Origin: Bacteroidota bacterium
GTDB taxonomy: Bacteria; Bacteroidota; Bacteroidia; Bacteroidales; VadinHA17
Reading direction: 5' to 3'
Assembly (NCBI GenBank): GCA_003250475.1
Contig: QKGI01000095.1
Coordinates: 1-45,732 of the forward strand
Length of the DNA stretch: 45,732 nucleotides
Made by a program: the position numbers and the translations under genes. Under the pieces are notes generated by a model, which was not told where the DNA came from, did no database searches, and saw only the letters and a list, made by a program, of their open reading frames with translations. Below are positions 45,235 to 45,732 of this stretch, piece by piece. Each line of letters opens with the position of its first letter. Position 1 is the stretch's first letter.

Positions 45235-45265
45235 TTTGCATGTTTAAGAGGAAGCATTACTTTTG
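45235..45265 (+). promoter_or_regulatory. Promoter for the tRNA-Ile/tRNA-Ala group
   Basis: TTTG (45235-45238), exactly 19 bases, then TACTTTTG (45258-45265): both boxes match the Bacteroidota consensus perfectly. The best promoter in the window. It begins 84 bases before tRNA-Ile. The remaining bases of 45088-45318 show a 6-bp hairpin (45267-45296) and nothing else. Confidence 0.85.
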
Positions 45266-45318: not shown

Positions 45319-45392
45319 AGTCCCATAGCTCAGTTGGTTAGAGCGCTACACTGATAATGTAGAGGTCCCCAGTTCAACTCTGGGTGGGACTA
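45319..45392 (+). tRNA. ileT: tRNA-Ile (GAT)
   Basis: A full 74-base cloverleaf: acceptor AGTCCCA (45319-45325) pairs with TGGGACT (45385-45391), D arm TAGCTCAGTTGGTTAGAGC, anticodon arm CTACA-CTGATAA-TGTAG with anticodon GAT, and T loop GTTCAACTC. CCA is not encoded. It is normally found between 16S and 23S rRNA genes together with tRNA-Ala, but no rRNA gene is in the window. Confidence 0.97.
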
Positions 45393-45405
45393 CGAAAAAA
45401 GCAAC

Positions 45406-45497
45406 GGGGATTTAGCTCAGTTGGCCAGAGCATCCCGTATCCGCCAGCCGGCGGATCGGGAGGGTCAAGGGATATGAATCCGGTTCTTTACAGAAAT
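45406..45497 (+). pseudogene. tRNA-Ala-derived 92-bp unit, copy 1 (palindrome replaces the anticodon arm)
   Basis: The first 27 bases are identical to the intact tRNA-Ala gene at 45498 (acceptor 5' strand and D arm). The anticodon arm is then replaced by a 29-base palindrome at 45433-45461: TCCCG/CGGGA outside, ATCCGCC/GGCGGAT inside, loop AGCC and one bulged T. GGTCAAGGG follows as in the tRNA, but the T arm and 3' acceptor strand no longer pair (ATGAATCCGGTTCTTTACAG). It cannot work as a tRNA-Ala. It abuts the intact gene directly. Confidence 0.85.
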
Positions 45498-45571
45498 GGG
45501 GATTTAGCTCAGTTGGCCAGAGCACCTGCCTTGCACGCAGGGGGTCAAGGGTTCGACTCCCTTAATCTCCA
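45498..45571 (+). tRNA. alaT: tRNA-Ala (TGC)
   Basis: An intact 74-base gene: acceptor GGGGATT (45498-45504) with AATCTCC (45564-45570; one G-T pair), D arm TAGCTCAGTTGGCCAGAGC, anticodon arm CCTGC-CTTGCAC-GCAGG with anticodon TGC, and T arm AAGGGTTCGACTCCCTT. CCA is not encoded. It is embedded in the array of decayed copies of itself and closed by a terminator. Confidence 0.97.
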
Positions 45572-45575
45572 CAGA

Positions 45576-45605
45576 AGAGTCATCAGCAACGATGGCTCTT
45601 TTTTT
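45576..45605 (+). terminator. Rho-independent terminator after tRNA-Ala
   Basis: AGAGTCATC (45576-45584) and GATGGCTCT (45591-45599) form a 9-bp stem with one G-T pair and a 6-base loop, followed by seven T residues. It ends the tRNA-Ile to tRNA-Ala transcript, so copies 3 and 4 downstream would need another promoter. Confidence 0.85.
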
Positions 45606-45606
45606 A

Positions 45607-45698
45607 TGTGTGTATGGTCAGTTGGCCGGAGCATCCCGTATCCGCCAGTTGGCGGATCGGGAGGGTCAAGGGATCTGAATCCGGTTCTTTACAGAAAT
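45607..45698 (+). pseudogene. tRNA-Ala-derived 92-bp unit, copy 3 (5' end decayed)
   Basis: Same period and layout as copy 1: the first 11 or so bases have diverged or are lost, then TCAGTTGGCC, and a palindrome at 45634-45662. Between copies 1 and 3 the palindrome differs only in the loop (AGCC in copy 1, AGTT here). GGTCAAGGGATCTGAATCCG and TTCTTTACAGAAAT follow with a single base change from copy 1. Confidence 0.8.
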
Positions 45699-45732
45699 GG
45701 GGATTTAGCTCAGTTGCCCGGAGCATCCCGAC
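45699..45732 (+). pseudogene. tRNA-Ala-derived unit, copy 4 (cut by window edge)
   Basis: Begins GGGGATTTAGCTCAGTTG exactly 92 bases after the inferred start of copy 3 and continues GCATCCCGAC to the window end. That is the left arm of the palindrome with a small change (CCCGAC in place of CCCGTA). The array therefore runs beyond this window. Confidence 0.75.

Follow-up and report, generated by a model that had tools for sequence, protein, structure and literature searches.

Palindrome-bearing tRNA halves and a small GIY-YIG nuclease lineage in Bacteroidia: probable traces of a tRNA-linked homing system

Closest described systems

SegB of T-even phages is a free-standing GIY-YIG homing endonuclease encoded in a tRNA cluster. 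According to the accessible part of the published account, phage T6 carries tandem repeats of tRNA-Tyr and segB, with microhomology between the 5′ end of the tRNA and the 3′ end of segB, and SegB homologs are reported in phages of Bacteroidota, among others (PMC13096335). As far as that part extends, the loci described here resemble SegB in that a GIY-YIG gene adjoins tRNA genes, its presumed targets, and that tRNA and nuclease recur in tandem; as with a free-standing homing endonuclease, the parts are present or absent at an orthologous site, here tRNA-Val(TAC). Unlike SegB, they lie on the chromosomes of one bacterial class, encode a protein of ~85 aa, and have displaced tRNA halves in which a palindrome stands in for the anticodon arm; the accessible part of the SegB account (PMC13096335) makes no mention of anticodon-arm palindromes. 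Within the portions of the literature accessible to our search, no account was found of GIY-YIG genes linked to tRNA in Bacteroidota chromosomes, or of palindromes in the anticodon arm there.

In Allomyces atp6, an insertion with an endonuclease ORF brings along a substitute for part of the interrupted gene, the original part being displaced downstream. The present loci are similar in that the replacement part would be supplied by the element and the displaced part lies downstream, but the Allomyces target is a mitochondrial protein gene, without palindromic replacement of an RNA arm. By sequence, the solved structures that best match the nuclease are 1zg2 (UPF0213 BH0048, E 3.6e-12), 1ywl, and SLX1 chains, and PF01541 was matched by 14/14 members of the profile A1 introduced below. 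To our knowledge, GIY-YIG proteins of the UPF0213 and SLX1 types have not been described as tied to tRNA genes. The Neisseria Ssn proteins form a single-strand-specific GIY-YIG family.

From the comparisons given below, the units described here are probably what is left of a homing system that resembles SegB and is linked to tRNA; it would consist of a tRNA gene and a ~85-aa GIY-YIG nuclease and supply a replacement tRNA. Such a system would apparently be a selfish element dwelling in tRNA genes, of a kind so far undescribed.

The tRNA-Ala array and its counterparts in the genus

The window, i.e., the whole stretch of DNA that was analyzed, is the entire contig C29 (45732 bp) of a source genome of 3.47 Mb in 168 contigs (97.8% complete; a 16S search of this MAG gave no match). 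The right end of C29 falls inside an array on the plus strand, in which a promoter-like sequence, tRNA-Ile(GAT), unit 1, tRNA-Ala(TGC), a terminator-like stem, and units 2 and 3 follow one another, the third unit being interrupted at 45732. The promoter-like TTTG-N19-TAnnTTTG (45235–45265), seen in the sequence 5′ of tRNA-Ile, is presumably a version of the Bacteroidota promoter consensus. ARAGORN and Rfam placed tRNA-Ile(GAT) at 45319–45393 and an intact tRNA-Ala(TGC) at 45498–45572 and reported these two alone in the window, the units not being called as tRNA. A test for a group I intron was likewise negative across the window: Rfam at gathering thresholds returned the two tRNAs only and no intron core RNA. 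The terminator-like stem with its T run (45576–45606), 3′ of tRNA-Ala, was read by eye from the sequence.

The units were delimited by sequence comparison. Unit 1 (45406–45497; 92 bp) is of the upstream type and is composed of the tRNA-Ala 5′ half, a hairpin, GGGTCAAGGG, and a tail, its 5′ half being identical to the neighboring tRNA-Ala. In the unit architecture, tRNA-Ala positions 1–26 are unaltered, the hairpin TCCCGTATCCGCCAGCCGGCGGATCGGGA substitutes positions 27–43, and GGGTCAAGGG comes next as in tRNA-Ala; the tail is non-tRNA and abolishes the T arm and the 3′ strand of the acceptor. The palindrome TCCCG-TATCCGCC-AGCC-GGCGGAT-CGGGA (45433–45461), located from the sequence and the genus and class patterns, takes the place of the anticodon arm as the preliminary description had claimed, and positions 27–43 give the exact extent. 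In the tail, GGTTCTTTACA (45482–45492), which we take to be boxA-like, is almost unchanged among the genus units read. Unit 2 (45617–45698) is 5′-truncated and has a hairpin at 45634–45662 and a tail of the upstream type, and only the start of unit 3 (45699–45732) precedes the contig end.

Re-analysis recovered the array as it had first been reported, with the units, the intact tRNA-Ala, the spacings of 92 and 201, and two hairpins with identical arms and different loops (AGCC at 45433–45461 versus AGTT at 45634–45662). The 5′ half that had been said to be common to all copies was found in copies 1 and 3 (copy 3 being incomplete); the copy placed at 45607 begins with ~10 bases that are not tRNA-like and matches from ~45618, so a full 5′ half stands at the start of copies 1 and 3 only. 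The stretch 45618–45725 is homologous to 45417–45524 (94%). The concern that the array might be an assembly artifact was not borne out, because comparable units recur in independent assemblies, including the single-contig genomes G193, G116, and G320.

The relatives were searched for the unit as the preliminary description had proposed. The first search for genus loci used TCCCG by design; a pattern that left the arm free (18–48 any bases), with no TCCCG requirement, then recovered 14 units, from 10 of the 22 genomes of the genus, against none in the reversed control. TCCCG..CGGGA is present in 13 of these units, and the 3′ arm of the G014 unit has one base changed. The inner hairpin varies among ATCCGCC..GGCGGAT, ACACTTGTGT, ACTTGAAAGT, and ACTTACAGT. 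All nine comparable units (seven genomes; G010 stands outside this comparison, its tRNA being out of view) have a 5′ half exactly equal to the local tRNA-Ala, and the first base differs in the G007 unit. A second, downstream unit type, seen in G012 and G014, is a 5′-truncated copy with a hairpin, a 3′ half, and an additional terminator-like stem; that of G014 has more palindromes inserted. The tRNA-Ile/Ala operon is common to the genus loci, some with units and some without: no upstream unit precedes tRNA-Ala at seven of the genus loci read (G001, G006, G009, G013, G015, G020, and G021), and G001 retains a degenerate unit piece downstream of tRNA-Ala. As a separate observation, the tRNA-Ile/tRNA-Ala spacer of L027, L031, and L041–L045 is built from inverted heptamer-like repeats (CGATTTT../AAATCG), which are missing from the window, G012, G010, and G015.

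The units could be a functional leader or small RNA, in which a rod would insulate or process the tRNA-Ile/Ala transcript with the help of the boxA-like tail. The folds lend this some weight inside the genus: each of the 10 genus units extracted gives a single rod, the tail and the 5′ strand co-change in G005 and G014, and the pairing of these strands exceeds shuffles in 5/8 genus tRNA-Ala units. The pairing of the window's own unit is not beyond shuffles (fraction 0.13), and in a swap control, in which the own strand was compared with strands of other tRNAs, the 5% level was reached in 12/43. The seven genus loci without an upstream unit argue against a leader function, and outside the genus only 1/31 units pair beyond shuffles, on which ground a general RNA insulator was rejected. 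We therefore regard this explanation as improbable for the units as a whole, and a later leader-RNA role within the genus is possible. The processed tRNA-like small RNA of the preliminary description accordingly keeps its footing inside the genus by the rod fold and tail pairing, but not outside it.

Palindromes and GIY-YIG genes at tRNA genes of the class

The class pattern, an AGAGC anchor with a TCCCG stem (TCCCG by design), matched 51 of 395 genomes of class Bacteroidia, with three matches in the reversed control. Four of the 51 (G418, G177, G187, and G102) were left out of the PF01541 search as having matches that are not tRNA-like, of which the G418 match alone was read. The class loci read adjoin tRNA-Ala, tRNA-Val, tRNA-Arg, and others, singly or in tandem, and in many genomes the palindrome-bearing halves adjoin an intact copy of the same tRNA. 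The palindromes occupy the anticodon arm of the displaced halves, and the complete tRNA retains its own arm, by a check that was free of TCCCG, yet made on loci mostly fetched through hairpins. The sixth base pair of the hairpin, which the pattern leaves free, is complementary in 69 of 82 distinct genome–hairpin pairs (three are G-U and 10 are unpaired); four pair types are represented, and it follows that the fold is kept rather than one sequence. The bare stem TCCCG..CGGGA occurs 188 times in the own genome versus 149 in the reversed control, so the stem alone is weakly informative.

A scan of named genomes, again with TCCCG by design, gave 15 stretches, of which 13 are labeled Bacteroidota or an order or species thereof; the remaining two are one from Candidatus Uhrbacteria and L062 (Opitutaceae), which is without tRNA likeness. 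The former (L056; JACRQE010000002.1, a Candidatus Uhrbacteria MAG of the CPR) carries three hairpin units in tandem 3′ of tRNA-Ala(GGC), along with terminator-like stems, and this array may be a matter of binning or of transfer.

A small GIY-YIG ORF of ~85 aa was found 3′ of the tRNA at palindrome loci. After PF01541, a profile (A1) from 14 such proteins was used as the query and had matches in 254 of the 395 class genomes (E ≤ 1e-8). Seventy nuclease loci were taken from the A1 ranking, 30 from the profile search and 40 chosen mostly in rank order without a TCCCG criterion, four of the 40 being tandem arrays selected for their spacing. At 56/70, a same-strand tRNA ends 16–251 bp upstream (within 300 bp), and at 50 the distance is 16–65 bp; a further 3/70 have a tRNA ≤100 bp downstream. 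Eleven of the 70 loci hold source proteins of A1 (nine tRNA-adjacent), and 47/59 are tRNA-adjacent when these are excluded. Over all loci fetched, 60 of 97 distinct nuclease proteins have a same-strand upstream tRNA (53 at 16–65 bp). The adjacency depends on the score, with 57/78 at ≥70 bits, many of these 78 proteins having been fetched through hairpins, versus 3/19 below, which serve as a cousin control.

The complete locus has the order 5′ half–palindrome–tail, intact tRNA, nuclease, and (5′ scrap)–palindrome–3′ half; from this order at loci with both units, the outer halves sum to one interrupted tRNA gene. Among the 57 tRNA-adjacent loci, an upstream unit with a palindrome is present at 27 and a downstream 3′ half at 38, of which 28 show a classed palindrome; 16 loci have both. 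At least one classed palindrome is present at 44/57; the 13/57 without one are an upper bound, as the search windows were short. Ten downstream copies lack a classed palindrome, and some of them carry another palindrome or a mismatched one. The cassettes read contain little besides the ~85-aa ORF, which may extend into the downstream unit and terminate at a stop codon within the tRNA-derived part of that unit. Three nuclease genes of the A1 type are present in the own genome, two beside tRNA-Val and one immediately before tRNA-Pro: C46 carries a unit, tRNA-Val(TAC), and the nuclease, and C30 carries tRNA-Val(GAC), both units, and the nuclease, whose ORF stops at TTAG of TTAGCTCAG. Of the three readings in the preliminary description, a remodeled integration site comes nearest, in that tRNA halves lie displaced beside an intact copy of the gene, and at other loci of the class such halves flank a tRNA–GIY-YIG cassette; the interpretation as a whole was partly supported.

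The nuclease was absent from 26 tRNA-Ala or related unit loci, the window included (profile E ≤ 1e-3; several of the records cover one and the same site). At the locus in the window, none was seen in the visible part before the contig end inside the array, and only 9/30 loci fetched by hairpin have a nuclease within 1.5 kb. In view of the 26 loci, the array in the window is either a relic after nuclease loss or the product of a nuclease at another locus. Parts evidently come and go at the orthologous tRNA-Val(TAC) site, and units occur without nuclease, because empty, unit-only, and unit-plus-nuclease alleles are found there. The own genome has a unit and a nuclease, interrupted by a contig end; in G006, G020, G021, and G007, a unit is present (partly decayed in G021, G007, and G020), and the profile search found no nuclease; in G002 and G011, unit arrays reach the contig ends; and G003, G015, G019, and G008 show the empty allele. 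In G017, an empty tRNA-Val lies close to the same gene but is oppositely oriented, and the contigs of G016 and G001 stop too early for the state to be scored.

The nuclease lineage tracks the palindrome class and, exceptions apart, the tRNA identity. On the 58-row nuclease tree, made from an alignment of 82 columns and with many forks open, tRNA isotype requires 17 changes (minimum 11; shuffled mean 35.0; 0/200 as low), and taxonomic family requires 45 changes for 28 families (unshuffled); the four tRNA-Arg rows are scattered, with four changes. The palindrome class, callable for 58/78 proteins with TTCCG counted as TCCCG (20 uncalled, 2 mixed and 18 none), changes once between TCCCG/TTCCG and TCCGYC (shuffled mean 15.0; 0/500 as low), on a branch with an SH-aLRT of 99. 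The palindrome class is not simply set by the tRNA, since TCCGYC occurs in two Val(GAC) rows and TCCCG in one Met row.

The same data bear on whether the loci are neutral debris, in which tandem duplication left partial tRNAs, common palindromic repeats landed later, and the nuclease is a bystander. The decay of units in G021, G007, and G020 would fit such a history, as would the abundance of TCCGYC palindromes in the own genome (G000, 33 sites) and G012 (35). Two findings speak against it: the displaced halves have the palindromes at their anticodon arm while the complete tRNA preserves its own, and palindrome class changes a single time on the nuclease tree. By a count over 50 genomes, with a pattern for 4-base loops only, only G000, G012, and G187 (43) are rich in TCCGYC palindromes. 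The other 17 of 20 genomes taken as carrying the TCCGYC-type nuclease, some of which (e.g., G207) are without a called palindrome, hold 0–7; 10 more nuclease-bearing genomes hold 0–6, and 20 genomes without an A1 match hold 0–7. Such palindromes are thus scarce (0–7) in 27/30 genomes taken as nuclease-bearing, and we consider debris an unlikely origin. The proposal that the nuclease mobilizes the dispersed palindromes was rejected on the same count, palindrome numbers being unrelated to nuclease presence in the 50 genomes. Besides, TCCGCC..GGCGGA palindromes lie away from tRNA genes in G000 C42, C111, and C112 (L086–L088) and at L074–L085, and in several relatives they sit within CAGTCGGCAGT-like repeats.

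Short palindromes with many dispersed copies in the genus also recall REP/BIME elements with RAYT, and a Y1/RAYT transposase might have carried REP-like palindromes into tRNA genes. However, the 97.8%-complete own genome has 0 matches to Y1_Tnp (PF01797), where a control search was positive in 5/14 genomes, the arm is replaced and not simply interrupted, and the palindrome class follows a GIY-YIG lineage. This origin was rejected and is very improbable. The earlier suggestion of a tRNA-embedded mobile palindrome gains from the agreement of palindrome class with nuclease lineage, but loses from the restriction of numerous TCCGYC palindromes to 3/50 genomes and from the missing Y1 transposase.

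A model for the tRNA-linked system

Here, we propose how the homing system that we favor may work. The nuclease would cut a tRNA gene where it encodes the anticodon arm, a stretch that is a small palindrome in its own right, and repair would copy the cassette into the cut gene, the complete tRNA in the cassette keeping the cell alive. In the displaced halves, the palindrome may label the cut site or block it, and tandem arrays might arise from repeated rounds or unequal crossing-over. The cutting and the origin of the palindrome are inferred from locus structure. Likeness to UPF0213 and to the structure-specific endonuclease SLX1, seen in sequence comparison, would be in keeping with a substrate that forms a hairpin or is branched. 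More tentatively, the loci might represent a class of chromosomal elements on essential tRNA genes, in which a GIY-YIG mini-nuclease opens the palindromic anticodon-arm DNA and the element splits the resident gene and supplies a full tRNA, with a lineage-specific palindrome (TCCCG.. or TCCGYC..) as the end of the element and its recognition or immunity mark.

Several findings count against the model. The intact cassette tRNA still has the presumed target, which leaves self-protection unaccounted for. The numbers of upstream and downstream units often differ (0 and 3 in G119; 2 and 4 at G167 C9:624300-626700), which argues against simple nested re-insertion, and strict nested self-insertion was rejected because these numbers do not match. 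The nuclease-free tRNA-Ala loci, the low share of hairpin-fetched loci with a nuclease, the tRNA-adjacent loci without a classed palindrome, and the unclustered Arg rows are also to be weighed, as are the independence of palindrome numbers from nuclease presence and the short alignment behind the trees. A search of viral contigs and phages with one query protein found no relative of the nuclease; viral or phage carriers were set aside on this result, which likewise counts against the model.

If the model is true, tRNA genes of a major bacterial class host a selfish system that does no harm because it brings a copy of the gene that it disrupts. Pseudo-tRNAs and unusual tRNA arrays would then be explained, the tiny UPF0213-like GIY-YIG family would gain a target and a function, phage SegB would have a cellular counterpart, and the correspondence of palindrome class with nuclease lineage would be a testable specificity code.

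Some arrays are described here for their own structure. In the own genome, C78 (L153, 915–1150) has tRNA-Lys(CTT), a terminator-like stem, a 3′ half with TCCCGACTTTAGTCGGGA, and a second copy of the stem, with no nuclease seen within the 2.1-kb stretch. Nuclease plus 3′ half also recurs in tandem in the class. G167 has a GIY-YIG array with a 457-bp period at C9:905500-910500 (L200; nine listed in the profile search and ten matches at the fetched locus, no tRNA called inside) and another with a 379-bp period at C9:624300-626700 (L201), after tRNA-Asn(GTT) with two upstream units. On G368 C12 (L132/L189), nine tRNA-Asp/Gly genes, with 5/8 spacings of 101 bp and interleaved palindrome units, are followed by a GIY-YIG gene.
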